Shown here: positions 32,880 through 45,078 of the stretch, piece by piece
Layout of the letters: the number at the start of each line of letters is the position of its first letter
Position numbering within the stretch: the first letter of the stretch is position 1
Assembly (NCBI GenBank): GCA_947482115.1
Contig: CANKII010000001.1
Coordinates: 124,001-188,000, forward strand
DNA: 64,000 nt
Direction: 5' to 3'
Source: Fibrobacterota bacterium
GTDB taxonomy: Bacteria; Fibrobacterota; Fibrobacteria; UBA11236
Translations under genes and position numbers: made by a program
Notes under the pieces: generated by a model
Told to the model about the DNA's origin: nothing
The model's database searches: none
What the model saw: only the letters and a program-made list of their open reading frames with translations

Positions 32880-34088
32880 TTACTGCGCCGGTCCTATCGG
32901 ACGGTCTTCCTCGGGAGGAAGCGGGCTGGAGCGCTTTGCATTTGCTGGCACAGGTGCGGACGGCCGAGGAGCTTCTTGTTTCACTTGCTGTACGGGTTTG
33001 TTTGGCGGAGCGGGTTGTTGCACCTGCCGCACCTGTTGTGGCTGTTCCACGAGTTCCATCGGTTCCAGAGGTCTTGTGCTTACGCGTTGCATTTGTTTGG
33101 CATTGGGAACATAGCCGGGTGGAAAGCGTGTCTGGTCGTCATAGCGGTTCTTGTGAAGCTTTTTCGGATTCCACAAGATTCCGGAAAGATCCGCACCGCT
33201 GAAATCACAATTTGAAATCGAAGATTCGGAGAAATCAGCGGCTGTAAAAACGCTTCCGCTGAAATCCACATCCTCCACATCGGTTTTATGAAACGAAGCC
33301 TCCTTGAATTCGCCCTGTCGGAAATCGGCATTGTCCAAATGCGCATAGCTGAACTCCGCCTGGTTGAAGCGGCATTGCACGCATTTAAATCCGCGCAAAT
33401 CGGCTTCCACAAAATTCCCTGCAGTGAAATCGGCCGTGCGTCCGGCAGTGTTGCGAAGGTCGGCATCGGAGAATCCGCAACTGGCCAGATTCGTATGATC
33501 GAAAACCGCACCGCGGAAATCGGCATGATCAAATTTCACATCGCGAAACCGGGTGTTGTGGAAATTGGTTTGGGTGAAATCGGCATCTTCAAGACTGCTG
33601 TTGGAAAAAAGCGCACTGTCGAGATTGGCTTTTGAGAAATCCGTCTTGTCGGTGAATTTGGTTTCCGTGAACAGGGCTTTGATTAAGGACGCAGAGGTAA
33701 AGGAGGCTTTCCATAGAATCGCATGGCTGAAGTTAGCCGCATCCAGGGTCGCGTTTTGAAAGTTGACGCCGTGAAGCTCGGACATGGTGAAATTTGAATT
33801 TCGAAGCACGGCCGCTTTGAAATTGGCCGAGACAAAACCGCTGGAGTTGAAACGCGTGTAATCCCCGGAGGAACCCTGGAATGAAATGTTGGATCCTGAG
33901 GCGTTTTCGAATCCGGCAAAGTCCAGACGGCAATTCAGAAATTTCGTTCCGGTGAGGTCTTTCGCCGTGAAGGAGGCGTGAGAGAGGTTCTCGCCTTGAT
34001 ACGATTGTTCGATGGCGAAAGCGGTAACAGGGAACAGCATTCCAAGGAGGAGTGCCCCTAGCTTTTGGACCCTGAAGGTTTTTGTCAT
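32880..34088 (-). CDS. Secreted pentapeptide-repeat protein with Pro/Gln-rich tail
   Basis: 402 residues from ATG 34088, chosen for the signal peptide (MTKTFRVQKLGALLLGMLF..., cleaved near AFA). From about residue 40 to 310 there are continuous pentapeptide repeats of the A(D/N)FxxA form (ANFSHA, ADFRGAV, ADFSESS), which fold as a right-handed quadrilateral helix. The last about 70 residues are rich in Pro, Gln and Val (QQPQQVRQVQQPAPPNKP). Cytoplasmic relatives can mimic DNA and protect gyrase, but the signal peptide argues for a periplasmic or surface role here. Confidence 0.8.
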   Translation of the reverse strand: MTKTFRVQKLGALLLGMLFPVTAFAIEQSYQGENLSHASFTAKDLTGTKFLNCRLDFAGFENASGSNISFQGSSGDYTRFNSSGFVSANFKAAVLRNSNFTMSELHGVNFQNATLDAANFSHAILWKASFTSASLIKALFTETKFTDKTDFSKANLDSALFSNSSLEDADFTQTNFHNTRFRDVKFDHADFRGAVFDHTNLASCGFSDADLRNTAGRTADFTAGNFVEADLRGFKCVQCRFNQAEFSYAHLDNADFRQGEFKEASFHKTDVEDVDFSGSVFTAADFSESSISNCDFSGADLSGILWNPKKLHKNRYDDQTRFPPGYVPNAKQMQRVSTRPLEPMELVEQPQQVRQVQQPAPPNKPVQQVKQEAPRPSAPVPANAKRSSPLPPEEDRPIGPAQ

Positions 34089-34127
34089 TTGAATAAGGTA
34101 AATGGTTATTGAATAAAGTAAATATGG
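34089..34127. repeat. TTGAATAARGTAAAT direct repeat in divergent promoter region
   Basis: TTGAATAAGGTAAATGG and TTGAATAAAGTAAATATGG, 20 bp apart, sit between the divergent pentapeptide and alr starts. The near two-turn spacing would suit a regulator, but none is known. Confidence 0.5.
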
Positions 34128-34146
34128 ATAGGGTACGATTTTTTTT

Positions 34147-35271
34147 ATGAGGAAACAGCAAGCTTCACCCGGCCGAATTTGGCTGGAGATTCGCCTGGGG
34201 GCCATCCGCCGGAATTTTCTCCGCATCCAAAAGACAGTGAGCCCTGCCAGTGTGATGGCCGTGCTTAAGGCGGATGCTTATGGTTTGGGCGCGCTTCCGG
34301 TTGCGGAAGCCCTGGTAGAAGCAGGTGCAGCCCGTTTTGGGGTGGCAGGGCTTCGGGAAGCGATAACGCTTCGCCGCCGATTTTCTTTACCGATACAGAT
34401 TCTAAGTGGACTTCTTGAAAATGAAATACCGGAATGCGTAAAACGGAGGATTATCTGTCCCATTCCGGATTTACGAACGGCCCGACTTTTATCCAAAGAA
34501 GCTGTTCGGCAAAGGAAAAAAGTGACGGTGCATATCAAGGTGGACACGGGAATGGGCCGCCTTGGTATTCCTCATTTCGAAGCGCGCGAAACGATCGAAC
34601 GCATTCTCAAATTACCCGGGCTGGAATTCGAGGGCATCTTTTCGCATTTCGCCAATGCCAATCATCCCCAACATGCCAAGACAAGGGAACAAATCATCTT
34701 GTTCCAGAATCTGCTTCGCGATTTGGAAGCGAAAGGACATCATTTTCCCATTGTCCATCTCGCGAATTCCGACGGCATCAATAATTTTCCCGAGTCCTAT
34801 TTCAATATGGTGCGCACGGGCATCAATCTTTATGGTGTCTTTGACTTGTTGGGCTTTCGTGCTTATCAACTCTCTCCTTCGCTTAGCCTGAAAAGTGAAT
34901 TGATGGAGTGTCGTTTGTTGCCTGCAGGGTTCACCATTGGTTATGGAGGAACGCACACTCTTTTCCGCGACACGTGGGTGGGGACCATTCCTGCAGGCTA
35001 TGCAGACGGCGTGCCGCTGGCTGCGAGCAATTCCGGCAATGTGCTTATTCGCGGTCAAGCTTGTCCCATCATTGGACGCGTGTCTATGGACTATCTGACA
35101 GTGGATTTGACTGCTTGTCTGAAGGCGAAGGCGGGGGACGAGGTGGTGTTTGTGGGCCGTTCCGGTAAACAGGAAATCACGATTGAGGACTGGGCCCGCA
35201 TCAAACAGACTCATCCTTACGACATCATTTGCTCGCTGGGCCCGCGTGTGGATCGGATTTATTTGCCCTGA
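34147..35271 (+). CDS. alr: Alanine racemase
   Basis: 374 residues, standard length. Interconverts L- and D-alanine for peptidoglycan. PLP lysine is Lys41 in VLKADAYGLG; the second catalytic base is Tyr266 in IGYGGTHTLF. The RVSMDYLTVDLT block and the C-terminal GDEVVFVG region are standard. The first ten residues (MRKQQASPGR) are more basic than usual. Confidence 0.93.
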   Translation: MRKQQASPGRIWLEIRLGAIRRNFLRIQKTVSPASVMAVLKADAYGLGALPVAEALVEAGAARFGVAGLREAITLRRRFSLPIQILSGLLENEIPECVKRRIICPIPDLRTARLLSKEAVRQRKKVTVHIKVDTGMGRLGIPHFEARETIERILKLPGLEFEGIFSHFANANHPQHAKTREQIILFQNLLRDLEAKGHHFPIVHLANSDGINNFPESYFNMVRTGINLYGVFDLLGFRAYQLSPSLSLKSELMECRLLPAGFTIGYGGTHTLFRDTWVGTIPAGYADGVPLAASNSGNVLIRGQACPIIGRVSMDYLTVDLTACLKAKAGDEVVFVGRSGKQEITIEDWARIKQTHPYDIICSLGPRVDRIYLP

Positions 35272-37795: not shown

Positions 37796-38263
37796 TTATT
37801 TCTTCTTCGCCATCCATTTCACAATGATCTGGTATTCCTTCGCAGTCACAGGTTGAACTGAGAGACGGGAACCTTTGCGTAGAACCACCATGGATTCTAA
37901 CCCGGGAATCGTCCGCATTTCTTCCATCGACAAAAGATTGGGGAAGGTCTTGACGAATTTCACATTCACCGCACGCCAGCGATTGCCGAGTTTTTCAGCT
38001 TTCGGATCGAAATAATGGGATTCGGGATCCATAGCCGTGGGATCGGGAAACGGTTCGGAAACGACTTCAGCCAAACCCGCAATGCCCGCAGGAGTAACGC
38101 TGCTGTGATGAAACAATACGGCATCTCCCGGGCGCATGGCTTGCAGATTATTCCGCGCCTGATAATTGCGGACTCCGGTCCATGGCTCGGTCTGTTTGGG
38201 CCTTGTTCTCAAATGCTCAATGCCGAATTCATCGGGTTCACTTTTCATCAGCCAATATTTCAT
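37796..38263 (-). CDS. EVE domain protein
   Basis: 155 residues from ATG 38263 behind AAGGGGG. A stand-alone EVE domain: YWLMKSEPDEFGIEHL, TEPWTGVRNYQARNNLQAM, GDAVLFHHSS and IAGLAEVVSEPFPDP are family signatures. EVE is a PUA-like fold that binds modified bases in DNA or RNA; stand-alone forms are widespread and their role unclear, while fused forms occur in restriction systems. It sits between the Pycsar-like island and mnmG, divergent from mnmG. Confidence 0.9.
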   Translation of the reverse strand: MKYWLMKSEPDEFGIEHLRTRPKQTEPWTGVRNYQARNNLQAMRPGDAVLFHHSSVTPAGIAGLAEVVSEPFPDPTAMDPESHYFDPKAEKLGNRWRAVNVKFVKTFPNLLSMEEMRTIPGLESMVVLRKGSRLSVQPVTAKEYQIIVKWMAKKK

Positions 38264-38344
38264 AAAAACCCCCTTGGATGCTCGTAAAACTGGGCAGTCT
38301 GACACTGCTTCAATATCTAATTTTACTCTCCCGGAATCACAGCT

Positions 38345-40210
38345 ATGAAGACAGTTTTTGACGTGGTGGTAATAGGTGGTGGCCATGCCGGCATCGAGGC
38401 GGCTCACGCGTCGGCGCGTCTGGGTTCCTCCACTGCCATGGTTACTTTGGATTTGGCGGCCATTGGCCGCATGTCCTGCAATCCTGCCATCGGTGGTGTG
38501 GCCAAGGGCCAGCTCGTGCGGGACATTGATGCCCTAGGCGGTTTGATGGGTGTGGTCGCCGATCAGGCGGGAATCCAGTTTCGCATGTTGAATCGATCCA
38601 AAGGTCCGGCGGTTTGGGGTCCCCGTGCGCAGATGGACATGGACGAATATGCGACCTTGATGCAGGATGCGTTAAGTCACACGCCAAATCTTTCCTTGGT
38701 TGCGGGTGAGTTACTCGATTTTAAACGCCAGATGAACGGCGGTTTCCTGCTGAGGCTGAGCGATGAACGGACCGTTGAAACTCAGACCTTAATTATCACT
38801 TCGGGAACCTTTCTCGGCGCCGTTATGTACACCGGTCTTCAAAGCACGGTAGGAGGTCGCATCGGCGAACCAGCTGCTGTAGAGCTGGCGAATACGCTGA
38901 AGGACATGGGTGTTAAAACACGCCGTCTTAAAACGGGAACTCCTGCTCGCCTCAAGGCCGACACATTGGATTATGGCGAAGTTGAAGTGCAGGAAGGGGA
39001 TGCCGAGCCTTTTCCGTTTTCTTTTCGCACCGAAGGCAAGTTGAAGAACCGGGCCGTGTGCTGGATTACGCGAACCCATGCCGGAACGCACGACATCCTT
39101 CGCACCGGTTTTGATCAAAGTCCCATGTTCACGGGCATGATTGACGGAATTGGCCCGCGCTATTGCCCATCCATCGAGGATAAAATCAGCCGTTTTGCGG
39201 AACGCGATTCGCACCAACTTTTTCTCGAACCTGAAGGGCTCAAAACCGGTCGCATTTATGTGAATGGTTTTTCCTCGAGTTTGCCGAAGGAAATTCAGGA
39301 TCAAGCCTTGCGCACCATTCCTGGTTTGAGGAATTGTGAGGTCCTGCGTTATGGCTACGCAGTGGAATATGATTCGGTGGACGCGACACAGCTTCACGCA
39401 ACGTTTGAGTGCCGTGAGATTCCAGGCTTGTACTTTGCAGGACAGGTGAATGGAACATCCGGTTATGAAGAGGCGGCGGCGCAGGGACTCATGGCGGGAA
39501 TCAACGCTGCTTTGCGCGTACAAGGACGGGAGCCGTTTTTGCTTTCCCGTGCCGAATCCTATATCGGTGTCTTGTCTGATGATTTGGTGAATCTGGAAAT
39601 CGACGAACCGTATCGCATGTTCACTTCCCGTGCAGAATATCGCCTGCATTTGCGTTCCGACAATGCCGAAGAGCGTTTGTTGGAAAAAGGTCATGCACAG
39701 GGTTTGGTGGAAGATGCGGTCCTGCTGAAGTATCAACGGCAACGTGAACGGGTGGAGGAGATGCGGAAGCGATTGCTTGAGACCAAGGTCACGCCGGAGT
39801 CCACAAATTCGTTTCTTGCAGCCAGTGGTGGCAGTGGATTGTCCGAGTCTGAGCACGCATTGGGATTGTTGCGTCGTCCCGAAGTCTCATTGCCGAGTCT
39901 GTTGACTCATCTTGGAATTGTCATGGATAATTGGTCCACTGCCGAGTTGGTGGCGTTGGAAGCCAGCGAACGCTACCGGGGTTTTCAGGAACGCCAGCGC
40001 AAGGATATTGAACGCAGCCAGCGGCTGGCGGAGTTACGCATTCCGGGGGGTTTCGATTATTCCACGGCGCTTTCTCTTTCGGTTGAGGCGCGCCAGAAAC
40101 TGGATCGTCGCCGGCCTTTGACCGTGGGTTTGGCACAACGCATTGCAGGGGTGACTCCGGCCGATATTTCCGGCCTCATTTTTCATCTTCAACAACGCCG
40201 TGCCGCGTAG
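38345..40210 (+). CDS. mnmG: tRNA uridine-5-carboxymethylaminomethyl modification enzyme MnmG
   Basis: 621 residues, full length. FAD-binding motif VVVIGGGHAGIEAA at the N-terminus, then MSCNPAIGGVAKGQLVRDIDALGG, and a conserved C-terminal helical region (DYSTALSLSVEARQKL). With MnmE it modifies the wobble uridine of certain tRNAs. MnmE is not in this window. The stop codon lies inside a perfect 18-bp palindrome. Confidence 0.96.
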   Translation: MKTVFDVVVIGGGHAGIEAAHASARLGSSTAMVTLDLAAIGRMSCNPAIGGVAKGQLVRDIDALGGLMGVVADQAGIQFRMLNRSKGPAVWGPRAQMDMDEYATLMQDALSHTPNLSLVAGELLDFKRQMNGGFLLRLSDERTVETQTLIITSGTFLGAVMYTGLQSTVGGRIGEPAAVELANTLKDMGVKTRRLKTGTPARLKADTLDYGEVEVQEGDAEPFPFSFRTEGKLKNRAVCWITRTHAGTHDILRTGFDQSPMFTGMIDGIGPRYCPSIEDKISRFAERDSHQLFLEPEGLKTGRIYVNGFSSSLPKEIQDQALRTIPGLRNCEVLRYGYAVEYDSVDATQLHATFECREIPGLYFAGQVNGTSGYEEAAAQGLMAGINAALRVQGREPFLLSRAESYIGVLSDDLVNLEIDEPYRMFTSRAEYRLHLRSDNAEERLLEKGHAQGLVEDAVLLKYQRQRERVEEMRKRLLETKVTPESTNSFLAASGGSGLSESEHALGLLRRPEVSLPSLLTHLGIVMDNWSTAELVALEASERYRGFQERQRKDIERSQRLAELRIPGGFDYSTALSLSVEARQKLDRRRPLTVGLAQRIAGVTPADISGLIFHLQQRRAA

Positions 40211-40242
40211 TAGGGGCGATTCGTGAATCGCCCCTACTACGC
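40205..40242. repeat. Perfect 18-bp palindrome GCGTAGTAGGGGCGATTC
   Basis: GCGTAGTAGGGGCGATTC (40205-40222), GT, GAATCGCCCCTACTACGC (40225-40242). It covers the mnmG stop and ends 1 bp before ATG of the next gene. The GTAGGGGCGATTC core is a widely dispersed bacterial repeat. Confidence 0.85.
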
Positions 40243-40243
40243 G

Positions 40244-42724
40244 ATGCGCACCTACGCGGTCATTTGGAATTTTCTGTTTTGTTTAATCCTCGGCCCGTTT
40301 GCGCCGTGGTTTGGTCATCTCCTTAAACTGCGCCGTGAAGGACGGAAGGTTCCGGGTGGATGGTTTCTTCCCTTCGCTTCTTTCATCATCGTATATCTCG
40401 CGTTATGGACTGCGCCTGTGCGGTGGGAATTCATGGTCGGAGCGTACCTTCTTTTGGGAACAGTTTCTTTTATTGTCTCTACTCGTGCAGTCGGATGGCA
40501 TGTTACGAGGCACGTTGATGAGAAAAGTTCATGGGGTGAATGTTTGGCGCTTGCTGCGCTGGTAGTGTATCCCGTTTTATTCGGATACGGGTTGTTGCGG
40601 GACATCAATGGCTTGCGTGGATTTTCCATTCATCTTCCTTCTTCCGTTTATATCGAGGCGCTGTTGTTTGCCGCGCGTTTCGGCACTCCTTCGGCAATTT
40701 TGCTTGCCTTTTTAGTCCGTCGATCCGGTCTCAAATCCGGTTTGCAGTTGATCCTGCATCTCTATATCGGTGCCATGGTGTTGATTTTTTGGATTGGAGT
40801 ATGCGAAAGGTTGTATCCCGTTGCCCTTTATCTTGCAGGAATTAAAGTGGTGGAACCCCTGCTCTTTGACGTTTACGGGGAAGCGTCCCTTCGTTCCATT
40901 TCGCACGGTATTTTTTATGCCGGCGGAATCCTGTTGGGAGTCGGTTATCTCGCCTGTGCATTGAATACCCGTAGTTTTGTGCGGCGATCTGTGTGGATGG
41001 GCGTTCCCGTATTTTTGGGATATGCCAATCTGATTCTATTGCTGGGGGAGGGTGGATATTTCCTTTCCGGGTTGCGGGATCATCTTTATCGCGAGGGACA
41101 TTACAACACCTATCGTACGGTGGCGAAACTGGAAATAGCACGACTGCCAAATGCCCTGCATGTTCCCGGTTTGATGATGGACTTGGGAGAGCTGGCCATC
41201 CTGCAAGGCAGGGGAGTGGAGGCGGCGCAATGGCATCGTCGCATTTTGAGATTGACACACGACAAACCCTATTTCAACTCGCTGCGTGAAAGGGTGTTGT
41301 GGGAGGATAATCAGCAGGGTTTCCATCCGGGTTGTATTCCTGTGGACTCGATGTTCCTCCTCCCCGTTCCGCGGGCGCGTTTTGGCGCGACTTTGGACGG
41401 TAACTGGTACGGATTGCTCAGTGCGGTTTCATTTTTCAGGCCCGGGTGGAGCGATTTTGATCTCAAGAAAAAATTGCTGGAGCTTTCCCCCGACATTCAA
41501 TTGTCCGTTTCCAATCTCGGTGGTGTTCCTTCCGTGGCGGAAGCGCTGGATGTTTTTGGAATTCCCTTCAGCCCTTGCTTTCTGGATTCCCTGCGATTGC
41601 ATGATGCCCTGAGGCAGCGAAAGATTCCATTCCTGAACATCGAGGGGCGCTGGGTGCCCGTGGTGGGATGGGATCCGTGTCGCAAAGGCTTCCTATGCTA
41701 TCGCTATCCCGATTCGCTGCAAAAAAATCCGTGGTTCGATCCGGCTGATAAGGATGCGGTGTTCAACGGTGGCCGCGGGGATTCGATTTCAAAAAAACCG
41801 GATATTCCCTATAATCTGATCGCTTTCGTTCCGGAAAGGGATCTGTTACAGCATCTTCATGACATCGGTGGCGTGGCCTTGATATTGGGCGACAGCACTT
41901 TTGCTTCTTCCACGGAGCGTCGTGCTGCTTACCTGACCGAGTTGGGAGATGTGTTGTATCAGGAACACGACGATAATGAAGATGCGGCGAAAGCCTATGC
42001 CAAAGCCCAAGCCTTGCATCCTTCCGATTACATCCTGGCCCGCATGGTTTATCTGGAGCGCCGCAAGATATGGGCGGAGGGCCCGAATTACGGTTGGGAC
42101 GCCATGTTCCGCGAAGAGGTCGGGAAGGAATTTTCCTTCGGACTGGATTCCATCGCACGGAATCGAATCACCGGAAAAATTCTGGATGGTGGAATGGGAC
42201 AATATCTTCTTCTCAACTGGCATGAAGCTGCGCCACGCTTTTTCGCCGGGAAGGATTCCATCGAACGGGATTCCGCAAGGACGATTTTTCAAACGTGGTT
42301 GCGATTGCAGCCAAACAATCCCGTTATTCTGGATTCACTGGCCACCGTTTTTCAGGCGCAGAGACGATGGGATTCGGCTGAGGTCTATTGCCGGCGTGAA
42401 CTTGGTTACTATCCGCTTGGAAACGAATACGCTGCTTATCGTCTGGCGTGGAATTTGTTCCAGCAGGAGCATTTCGAAGAACTGGACAAATGGCTGGATC
42501 GCAGCGAATCGTTTCAGGAAGATGCGCATTATCTGTTGATGCAGGCGGCCTTGGACTGGCACAAGGGACGTCGCCGTGCAGCGGTTTCAGAAATTCGAAA
42601 AAGCCTGAAGCTGGACAAGACTTTGTCTGAATCCCACAAGTGGATGGAGCGCATGGCGCTGGCAAAGGGGGATTCTTCCGGTGCGACGCTGAATCGTCGC
42701 TGGCAAGATAGGACGCGGCCGTGA
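40244..42724 (+). CDS. Eight-helix membrane protein with TPR-like region and degenerate C39-like peptidase domain
   Basis: 826 residues from ATG 40244; GTG 40223 would start inside the palindrome. About eight membrane segments fill residues 1-280 (NFLFCLILGPFAPWFGHLL first, VFLGYANLILLLGEGGYFL last). A soluble part follows with a region aligned to the C39-like domain of the next gene: FLNIEGRWVPVVGWDPC corresponds to its FIPGHVIAVFGYDKA. The catalytic His is Arg469 here and no Cys is seen in the equivalent place, so it looks inactive. The C-terminal about 230 residues are TPR-like (AKAYAKAQALHPSDYILARM, WDSAEVYCRRELGYYP). The stop overlaps the next start (GTGA), so the two are made together. 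Confidence 0.65.
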   Translation: MRTYAVIWNFLFCLILGPFAPWFGHLLKLRREGRKVPGGWFLPFASFIIVYLALWTAPVRWEFMVGAYLLLGTVSFIVSTRAVGWHVTRHVDEKSSWGECLALAALVVYPVLFGYGLLRDINGLRGFSIHLPSSVYIEALLFAARFGTPSAILLAFLVRRSGLKSGLQLILHLYIGAMVLIFWIGVCERLYPVALYLAGIKVVEPLLFDVYGEASLRSISHGIFYAGGILLGVGYLACALNTRSFVRRSVWMGVPVFLGYANLILLLGEGGYFLSGLRDHLYREGHYNTYRTVAKLEIARLPNALHVPGLMMDLGELAILQGRGVEAAQWHRRILRLTHDKPYFNSLRERVLWEDNQQGFHPGCIPVDSMFLLPVPRARFGATLDGNWYGLLSAVSFFRPGWSDFDLKKKLLELSPDIQLSVSNLGGVPSVAEALDVFGIPFSPCFLDSLRLHDALRQRKIPFLNIEGRWVPVVGWDPCRKGFLCYRYPDSLQKNPWFDPADKDAVFNGGRGDSISKKPDIPYNLIAFVPERDLLQHLHDIGGVALILGDSTFASSTERRAAYLTELGDVLYQEHDDNEDAAKAYAKAQALHPSDYILARMVYLERRKIWAEGPNYGWDAMFREEVGKEFSFGLDSIARNRITGKILDGGMGQYLLLNWHEAAPRFFAGKDSIERDSARTIFQTWLRLQPNNPVILDSLATVFQAQRRWDSAEVYCRRELGYYPLGNEYAAYRLAWNLFQQEHFEELDKWLDRSESFQEDAHYLLMQAALDWHKGRRRAAVSEIRKSLKLDKTLSESHKWMERMALAKGDSSGATLNRRWQDRTRP

Positions 42725-45078
42725 ATCAGGAACGTCCAGTCCTTCCGGTAACGATTCCGGGTTTTGTCTATCCACTGCTGTTTGTAGCGGGACCTTTGCC
42801 TTTATGGCCTTTTGCGCGAAGCCTGTCCACATTCACCCGCGTCGGGATTTTTCCGTTTCCCTATTTGATGTTCGCATTGCCGTTCCTGTTGTCGTGGAAC
42901 TGGCTTTTGCTGGCCAGCACTTTGGCGGCAGGCAACGGACTTTTCGCGCTCGTATTCTCTCTTCTGCATCCGCCGTATCGAATGGCAGCCTCAGACTCAT
43001 TGAAACCGGTGAAGAGCGGGAATCGATTCCGCGAGAGTTTGAGCATGATCGTCTGCGGCCTTCCCTTCGGATTGATTCTTGTGAGCGTGGAACAGTGGCT
43101 CACGGATGTGCTGTGGAGCGGGTTTTATCCCGTGAACGCCTCGATTGAATCCATCTCCTATGAAGTGGGCAGTGCGTGGATGTTGTTCGCCGCCGTGTTC
43201 GCCTTCACAGCATTTTATGTCTCGTCGGGTGTGGGTACAGTCACGCCGGTTCGGGTTTTGAAATTGCTGTTGGGGACTTTCCTCGCTTATTGTGCCGTGC
43301 ATCAACTCTATCTGCTGATCGTTGCGATACCGGAATGGCAAACCGAGATCCGTGAAATTTTTCCACCCTGGGTGATCGAACTTCGCGAAGCCGCTTTTCA
43401 TCTGCTGATTTACGCCGGAGTGCCTGTCACTTTGGGAAGCCTCTTTCTTTCACACAGAAACAGCAGGCCTTTCAGGGAATTTTTTGCGGGATTGATGTCG
43501 GTGGCTCTGGCGCTGGTCATGATGGCCTGGGTAAGCGGAATGCCGATTCATTATGCCCTGCTTCTGGGCCAGCGGGCGGAAAAAATTGGAAGACCCAACG
43601 ATGCGATTCCATGGTATTCCCGTGCCTTGACATGGAGCCATTCGGACAAGCTCAAGTCCTATCTCCAGTTTCGGGTCGGATTGTTGTACCGCAAGACAGG
43701 ACATTTGGAAGAGGCTCGTGACGCCTTTACGCGTGTGCTGGTGCGCTATCCACAGGATGAAACGCTGTTGGATGACGCGGACGAATTCAAGGAAAAACTT
43801 GCGGCGGGGAAAGCTACTTCCGGGCAACGTGTGGTGATTCCGGGCATCGAGGCGCGTACCGAATACAAAAGCGCCTATTGCGTTCCCAATTCATTGGGTC
43901 TGCTGCTCAACTTCTGGGGCGACCGTAGCGGAGCGAAGCGCATCGGTTCGGAGATCACCCAACTGGATCGCGGCAGCTTGATTACAGATGAAGTCTATTA
44001 CGCCGAGTCACGCGGGTTTGTCAGCCTCGTGGTGCCGCTTTGCAATCTGGAGCAGATGCACCGGCTCGTGGACGCAGGGATTCCCATGCTGGCCTTCATT
44101 CCAGGGCATGTGATTGCCGTATTCGGGTATGATAAGGCATTAGGGACCTTGGTGACTTATGATGTCAGCACTTTCGACATTTGGGATGATGAGCGAGTCA
44201 ATCACTTTGCCGCAGACTGGTCTCTGACTTGCAACACTTTGGGAATTGTGGTGCCCAAAAATCTGTTGTCCAAGGTTCGTGCTGTGTTGGGTACAGATGT
44301 AGAAAAGCGTTCCGAGTCCTATTTGCATTATCTCATGGCGCAGTTGGTCGAAACCAATCCGGATTTGCGCTTGAGCCATTTGCGAAGATCGCAAGGACAT
44401 GGATTTTTCCCTGCCAGTTGGGAATATCGTGCCATGGCGGGGGATACCTCGGGTGTAACATTTGAGGATTCTACTGCCAAGTCCTTTCTGTTGGGGCATG
44501 AAACAGATGAACAGACGCCTTTCATTTTCGCCATGGATGAAATCTGGCGTCATCACCCCGATTCGGCTTTTTCTTTTCTCAAGGAGCTAGGGGAAAGAAA
44601 ACCTTTAACGCCCGCTTTGGTTACGGCATTGGCAGGCTCGGGTTTACGCAATGGAAAAGCAGCGGATGCCGGAGAGATCCTGTTGCACTCGGTGGCGTTC
44701 GATAAAATGGAACCCGCTGCAGCCGCTTTTCTGCTGCGTCGTGCGCCGATGGAGAATGACGCGGTCGATTGGGTCGGACGTTTGAGCACGGAAGTTTTGA
44801 ATCGCAATGAATTACATGGGGATGAAGCTCGTTTGGCTTATCAAACATGGAGAGCTCTGGGTGCGCAAGGAAGCAATCTGGATGAAGCGCTTCAGCAGAT
44901 TCATTCTTATCTGGATCGGTGGAGCCCTTATGATACCACGGCGATTGGTGATTTATGGGATGCGCTGAAGCGCAAAACCTTCCGGCCTAATGAGGAAACG
45001 GACGAGCGGGTATGGAAGAAACAGTCGCGGGTACTGGACGTTCGCAGAGCGAGACTGCAATGGGCGAATGGGGGATGA
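42721..45078 (+). CDS. Eight-helix membrane protein with TPR and intact C39-like peptidase domain
   Basis: 785 residues from GTG 42721. About eight membrane segments span 1-285. A TPR-like segment (DAIPWYSRALTWSHSDKL, GHLEEARDAFTRVL) follows. At about 375-495 is a C39-like cysteine-peptidase domain with a candidate triad: Cys387 (YCVPNSLGLLLNFWG), His463 (GHVIAVFGYD) and Asp481 (TYDVST). C39 peptidases usually cut double-glycine leaders or are parts of toxin and bacteriocin exporters; here no ABC transporter domain is attached. The rest is helical. The upstream gene encodes a homologue with a degenerate domain. No known family covers the pair. Function unknown. Confidence 0.7.
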   Translation: MNQERPVLPVTIPGFVYPLLFVAGPLPLWPFARSLSTFTRVGIFPFPYLMFALPFLLSWNWLLLASTLAAGNGLFALVFSLLHPPYRMAASDSLKPVKSGNRFRESLSMIVCGLPFGLILVSVEQWLTDVLWSGFYPVNASIESISYEVGSAWMLFAAVFAFTAFYVSSGVGTVTPVRVLKLLLGTFLAYCAVHQLYLLIVAIPEWQTEIREIFPPWVIELREAAFHLLIYAGVPVTLGSLFLSHRNSRPFREFFAGLMSVALALVMMAWVSGMPIHYALLLGQRAEKIGRPNDAIPWYSRALTWSHSDKLKSYLQFRVGLLYRKTGHLEEARDAFTRVLVRYPQDETLLDDADEFKEKLAAGKATSGQRVVIPGIEARTEYKSAYCVPNSLGLLLNFWGDRSGAKRIGSEITQLDRGSLITDEVYYAESRGFVSLVVPLCNLEQMHRLVDAGIPMLAFIPGHVIAVFGYDKALGTLVTYDVSTFDIWDDERVNHFAADWSLTCNTLGIVVPKNLLSKVRAVLGTDVEKRSESYLHYLMAQLVETNPDLRLSHLRRSQGHGFFPASWEYRAMAGDTSGVTFEDSTAKSFLLGHETDEQTPFIFAMDEIWRHHPDSAFSFLKELGERKPLTPALVTALAGSGLRNGKAADAGEILLHSVAFDKMEPAAAAFLLRRAPMENDAVDWVGRLSTEVLNRNELHGDEARLAYQTWRALGAQGSNLDEALQQIHSYLDRWSPYDTTAIGDLWDALKRKTFRPNEETDERVWKKQSRVLDVRRARLQWANGG

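Follow-up and report, generated by a model that had tools for sequence, protein, structure and literature searches.

A co-inherited pair of membrane TPR proteins with an intact and a degenerate C39-type domain suggests a possible envelope device of two parts for the processing of proteins

The gene pair and its neighbourhood

The DNA analysed here is a stretch of 64,000 nucleotides (the window) from a 2.7-Mb Fibrobacterota genome, in which two adjacent genes encode large membrane proteins. Gene 1 (40244-42724, + strand) codes for a membrane TPR protein with a pseudo-C39 domain, and gene 2 (42721-45078, + strand) for a membrane TPR protein with an intact C39-type triad. An earlier reading, made from the letters of the DNA without database searches (the sequence-only reading), had described two forward-strand genes overlapping by GTGA, which was confirmed at positions 42721-42724 (+), where the stop codon of gene 1 meets the start codon of gene 2; an overlap or a close junction was also found in 12 other genomes. 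The pair lies downstream of mnmG (38345-40210; PF01134), and the gene that comes after it, assigned from its sequence as gyrA, is convergent.

The reading frame of gene 1 is also open from a GTG at position 40223, the start given by the ORF finder. The ATG at 40244, where the gene had previously been taken to begin, is the better start, since the GTG falls within a perfect 18-bp hairpin (40204-40243, unstranded) that belongs to a dispersed repeat. This hairpin spans the mnmG stop codon, ends just before gene 1 and has an RNA folding energy of -35.6 kcal/mol (z -8.2). Residue numbers used below for the features of gene 1 (e.g., 378-500, Trp395, Arg476 and Arg494) are counted from GTG 40223. The repeat (window 40204-40243; L134-L153; L024:6114) is a REP-like GTAGGGGCG...CGCCCCTAC palindrome, in which the outer arms (GTAGGGGCG/CGCCCCTAC) are constant and the inner stem varies on both sides with its pairing kept. 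Within 400 kb of the contig that holds the window, about 14 copies were observed, and a copy is also found at the mnmG/gene 1 junction of another genome carrying the pair (G002).

It had been noted that no ABC transporter is adjacent to the pair, and this is true at the window locus. Upstream, mnmG was found in eight genomes, and in a sister genus (g2) a sugar-transferase-like gene, assigned from its sequence, intervenes. Downstream, gene 2 is followed by a lipoprotein gene in genus g2 and in one further genome (G010); the lipoprotein gene of g2 is in turn followed by genes for an ABC-2 ATPase and permease. The lipoprotein, of ~220 aa and without a Pfam family (L026:6252-6917, L030:11555-14376, L031:3923-4570), is present in 115 of the 168 Fibrobacterota genomes and was not found in the genome or genus of the window. 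Because it is class-wide and occurs mostly without the pair, it is regarded as a resident neighbour that is not specific to the pair, and it was rejected as a third component. In Desulfatibacillum alkenivorans and in a second genome with a pair of the same type (G538), a gene for a small membrane protein without a Pfam family lies directly after the pair (L051:11791-12372, L086:11272-11862), and its product is a possible third component in these two genomes. No neighbour was common to all loci, and the unit consists of the two genes; likewise, no conserved neighbour names a substrate in the neighbourhoods examined.

These surroundings bear on the maturation and export of bacteriocins or RiPPs, the usual business of C39 domains. 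Such a role would be in keeping with the C39 fold and with the ABC-2 exporter located downstream in genus g2. However, no gene for a leader peptide was noted next to the pair, and neither protein has an ABC domain, so that the C39-ABC fusion by which PCAT/AMS proteins are recognised was not found. Moreover, the C39 domain is predicted to lie outside the cytoplasm, the g2 lipoprotein is the class-wide neighbour described above, and the Desulfatibacillum loci are without a conserved export neighbour. Bacteriocin maturation, already disfavoured, was rejected for want of a leader, an ABC fusion and a cytoplasmic location, and its probability is considered close to negligible.

Intact and lost triads in two paralogous proteins

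Both proteins have the same layout that had been recognised from their translations, in which about eight hydrophobic segments precede TPR-like helices and a C39-like region. The membrane part of gene 1 (40256-41047, +) was delimited from hydropathy profiles, computed both for the alignment and homologue by homologue. The averaged profile showed six segments and individual homologues had as many as nine, which fits about eight transmembrane (TM) helices. For gene 2 (42760-43548, +), hydropathy averaged over ten homologues revealed eight membrane segments, and a ninth peak within the C39 domain was discounted. The positively charged loops of gene 2 alternate, in that those after TM1, TM3, TM5 and TM7, which are expected to be cytoplasmic, sum to ~12.4 Lys+Arg per sequence, versus ~2.4 in the opposite inter-helix loops. 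By the positive-inside rule, this alternation would place all that follows TM8, including the TPR part and the C39 domain, on the non-cytoplasmic side, and a periplasmic location is thus predicted for these parts from composition and loop charge.

In gene 2, Pfam models detected TPR repeats and a weak Peptidase_C39_2 domain. The TPR part before the C39 domain (43546-43815, +; PF07719, E 1.5e-7) ranks with the regions of gene 2 that are under the strongest constraint, and the C39-type peptidase domain (43816-44280, +) is the most conserved one, with a mean column conservation of 0.67 in its core versus 0.42-0.56 elsewhere in gene 2. The Cys387/His463/Asp481 triad proposed earlier is present and invariant in 10/10 aligned homologues, the codon of the nucleophile Cys387 being located at 43879-43881 (+), that of His463 at 44107-44109 (+) and that of Asp481 at 44161-44163 (+). 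The C-terminal helical-repeat region (44470-45072, +) corresponds to helices 584-784 of the AlphaFold model.

Structure prediction, suggested beforehand as a check, answered in part. The order of elements in the models agrees with a C39-like one, but confidence is low around the gene 2 active site, where a helix (388-398) comes right after Cys387 and is followed by strands bearing, or ending near, His463 and Asp481. In gene 1, the model of the pseudo-domain has a helix at 393-405 followed by strands at 449-493, predicted at moderate to good confidence. Foldseek searches with both AlphaFold models retrieved TPR proteins only, and a PDB profile search with the two C39 cores returned nothing significant, with no solved C39 structure found.

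The chemistry of gene 2 was considered in the light of the C39 peptidase LahT, in which the oxyanion residue Gln21 stands six residues before the Cys (PMC6363468). This canonical Gln is absent from gene 2, where position -6 is Glu (Leu in the G092 homologue) and an invariant T-x-Y...YC context around the Cys takes its place, so that the enzyme might catalyse acyl transfer. Gene 2 could then encode a papain-like thiol enzyme other than a protease (an acyltransferase, a transglutaminase-like enzyme or an amidase), with gene 1 as its binding or regulatory partner. That a double-glycine substrate is not expected on the periplasmic side, and that the window protein scores only 16.6 bits against PF13529, below the curated cut-off, would agree with an enzyme of this kind. 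However, PF13529 (Peptidase_C39_2) matches 7/7 isolated gene 2 cores (best E 5.6e-9) and two full-length homologues, with scores of 28.3 and 32.7, exceed its curated cut-off of 24. The triad spacing is also C39-like, with 76 residues from Cys to His and 18 from His to Asp, as compared with 74 and 16 in LahT147 (Cys27, His101 and Asp117), and the LahT structure questions the role of the Gln itself (PMC6363468). A non-protease enzyme is held to be unlikely, although not negligibly so.

Gene 1 and gene 2 are ancient paralogues, alignable over 527 columns, through the membrane, TPR and C39 parts (hhalign E 1.2e-18), at an identity of ~13%, and their C39 cores alone align at E 1.3e-9 in a profile-profile comparison. 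The pseudo-C39 domain of gene 1 (residues 378-500; 41354-41722, +) was delimited by profile-profile alignment, a column table and the AlphaFold model, and it is followed by a long second TPR array (41903-42715, +), recognised by weak Pfam TPR models and by Foldseek matches to TPR superhelices. The Arg read at the His position was found as stated (Arg469 from ATG 40244, which equals Arg476 from GTG 40223), and the Asp position is occupied by Arg494. The parallel claim that gene 1 has no Cys holds for the catalytic helix, in which none is conserved, and fails for the protein as a whole, which has nine Cys elsewhere. Across ten gene 1 proteins, the His column reads R, R, H, R, T, V, S, L, S and Q, and the Asp column R, R, S, A, N, G, S, N, S and N; the full triad is absent from every gene 1 compared, none of the ten has a conserved catalytic-helix Cys, and Trp395 of the pseudo-catalytic helix is invariant.

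The loss of the triad is not accompanied by decay. In unsaturated pairs of genus g2, the pseudo-domain showed dN/dS values of 0.08-0.16, mostly the lowest among the domains of gene 1, which indicates that it is maintained under purifying selection, although these ratios are rough because synonymous sites are near saturation in g2 pairs. In the same genus, the first TPR part (TPR1) displayed values of 0.03-0.09 in gene 2 and of up to 0.40 in gene 1, and this asymmetry of constraint fits a fixed catalytic unit (gene 2) combined with a variable recruiter (gene 1). A fast-evolving TPR1 in gene 1 beside a highly constrained one in gene 2 would also be expected if gene 1 met variable ligands, as in a signalling device in which gene 1 senses the state of the envelope via its TPR/pseudo-C39 parts and switches on the gene 2 protease (regulated proteolysis). 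The selection that keeps the dead paralogue and the presence of two large TPR scaffolds are in line with signalling, but in the neighbourhoods examined no gene for a regulator, sigma factor or anti-sigma factor was found repeatedly next to the pair, and only a small share of belief is given to it.

Co-inheritance of the two genes

The sequence-only reading had made its proposal depend on the two genes being conserved together in relatives, and the outcome favoured the pair. The in-depth search covered two phyla, and at the thresholds used 14 of the 563 genomes carried both genes and none carried one alone, counts that do not represent independent events because they are confined to a handful of lineages. 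Gene 2 was found in 11 of the 168 Fibrobacterota genomes and gene 1 in the same 11 (including G005, in which gene 1 is cut by the contig end), and in the phylum of Desulfatibacillum alkenivorans the same three genomes (3/395) had both. The dead gene comes first, with an overlap or a close junction, at all 13 readable junctions, and the widest gap, in G171, is of ~66 bases. Both genes are absent from two genomes of the same genus as the window (G001 and G003), which have other genes beside mnmG, this gene lying at a contig end in G003. A scan of genome contigs retrieved no relative when a single protein was used and eight loci when the alignment was used, and the viral contigs and plasmids searched held no relatives of the pair.

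In a tree of 27 proteins, the gene 1 and gene 2 clades split once, with a support of 100/100. The two subtrees are broadly congruent, and their distance matrices are correlated with r=0.986, a result that would also follow from vertical descent or from joint transfer without contact between the proteins. Both subtrees set two Fibrobacterota genomes (G092 and G095) beside the Desulfobacterota pairs; thus, either the two genes were transferred as one unit or the unit predates these lineages.

The low identity between the two proteins and the long TPR array that gene 1 has of its own would suit paralogues that act separately, gene 1 being a mere TPR scaffold that kept its genomic place without sharing a complex. 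The lack of any genome with one gene alone among the 563, the joint loss of both genes and their usual overlap or tight junction speak against such separate action, which is judged distinctly improbable. The active/inactive pair described earlier and its obligate association are strongly supported by co-occurrence in two phyla, mirrored trees, an overlap or tight junction in nearly all cases and purifying selection on the pseudo-domain; the physical heterocomplex and the sensor or maturation role suggested with it are inferred.

Known C39 systems and the proposed device

Neither protein is covered over its whole length by a model of Pfam, NCBIfam, PHROGs or PADLOC. The pair had no PHROGs or PADLOC match, so that a phage origin and a known defence function are unsupported, and no description of such an active/dead pair was found in the set of papers searched.

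By its C39 core, gene 2 resembles PF13529 and the PA2778 cysteine peptidases, which share with it the Cys-His-Asp triad and alignable catalytic motifs. The NF033920 model (PA2778 family cysteine peptidase) gave a weak direct match, with E 0.0026 and 17.2 bits with the Desulfatibacillum gene 2, against a cut-off of 150, and did not match the window protein. The PA2778-like proteins aligned are stand-alone lipoproteins of ~180 aa that carry the Gln before the Cys, whereas gene 2 lacks this Gln, crosses the membrane with eight TM helices, has TPR parts on either side and is accompanied by a dead paralogue. Short C39 lipoproteins are frequent in the Desulfatibacillum phylum (L059, L061, L064 and L066), and two that were checked are near the PA2778 family, with 125-128 bits, below the cut-off of 150. 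The many short C39 matches of the Desulfobacterota scan were rejected as pair members, being PA2778-like lipoproteins where checked.

A precedent for the active half is FapD, a C39 protease of the Pseudomonas periplasm on which functional amyloid secretion depends and whose C38A mutant is inactive (PMC5557850). As predicted for the pair, it acts outside the cytoplasm and outside ABC transporters; however, it is a small Sec-exported protein encoded in the fap operon, with no TM bundle, TPR or described dead partner. The FapD model NF058616 (cut-off 330) matched neither the window proteins nor the gene 2 homologues, and no fap gene was recognised in the neighbourhoods examined. LahT, PCAT1 and ComA share with gene 2 the triad and its approximate spacing, but they are cytoplasmic, fused to ABC domains and equipped with the Gln, and they cleave double-glycine leaders.

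For gene 1, the precedent is the C39-like domain (CLD) of HlyB, in which the Cys is replaced by Tyr and which is nevertheless essential for secretion and binds the unfolded substrate (PMC6363468, PMC8277102). Both are degenerate C39 domains without the Cys, and the retention of the CLD for substrate binding offers a model for gene 1. On the other hand, the CLD is fused to an ABC transporter of type 1 secretion, lies on the cytoplasmic side and requires no paired active protein, whereas gene 1 is a membrane/TPR protein without an ABC domain.

CtpA is an envelope protease that works with a TPR partner, LbcA. The Foldseek TPR matches included 7rqf and 8sxf, which correspond to CtpA-LbcA of Pseudomonas; this system combines a serine protease with an unrelated lipoprotein adaptor, and its likeness to the pair is one of principle only.

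The reading that we favour, with moderate confidence, is that of an inner-membrane, periplasm-facing cysteine-protease device of two subunits, in which gene 2 is catalytic and gene 1 its dead partner. In this device, the membrane domain of gene 2 would anchor the catalytic subunit, its TPR part would present the substrate, and its C39-type domain would cleave via Cys387-His463-Asp481. Contacts between the membrane and TPR/C39 parts, which are homologous in the two proteins, would join gene 1 to gene 2 in a putative physical complex, in which gene 1 would use the degenerate groove of its C39 domain and its second, long TPR array to recruit, hold or gate the protein to be cut. By analogy with the inactive HlyB domain, gene 1 would be an indispensable partner that recruits the substrate or serves as a scaffold, and the substrate is likely an exported or envelope protein.

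A broader proposal, on which our judgement is evenly balanced, is that the pair represents an undescribed envelope proteolytic machine with its own substrate class, i.e., an obligate active/dead heterocomplex of TPR-bearing membrane C39 proteases that duplicated anciently and has since been inherited, or transferred between phyla, as a unit. The ingredients are known, namely the fold and the idea of a dead C39 domain, and it is the combination, the architecture and the obligate active/dead pairing that appear to be new. If the proposal is correct, a C39 protease would exist outside both ABC transporters and the small secreted type, within a polytopic membrane protein that is linked to an inactive version of itself. 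With an obligate active/dead C39 pair conserved across phyla, a single operon would allow a direct test of what a pseudoprotease does, and the pair would also point to a further class of envelope proteins that undergo processing in Fibrobacterota and Desulfobacterota.

Other genes of the window were observed on the opposite strand. A Pycsar anti-phage pair (35876-37317, -), comprising a class III nucleotidyl cyclase gene that overlaps a membrane effector gene, was recognised by PADLOC models (PycC, best E 1.9e-21; PycTM, best E 3.3e-24), and a gene for an EVE-domain protein (37796-38407, -; PF01878, E 1.4e-50) lies near it. A pentapeptide-repeat protein with a possible signal sequence is encoded at 32880-34226 (-), and its gene is syntenic beside alanine racemase in four genomes.
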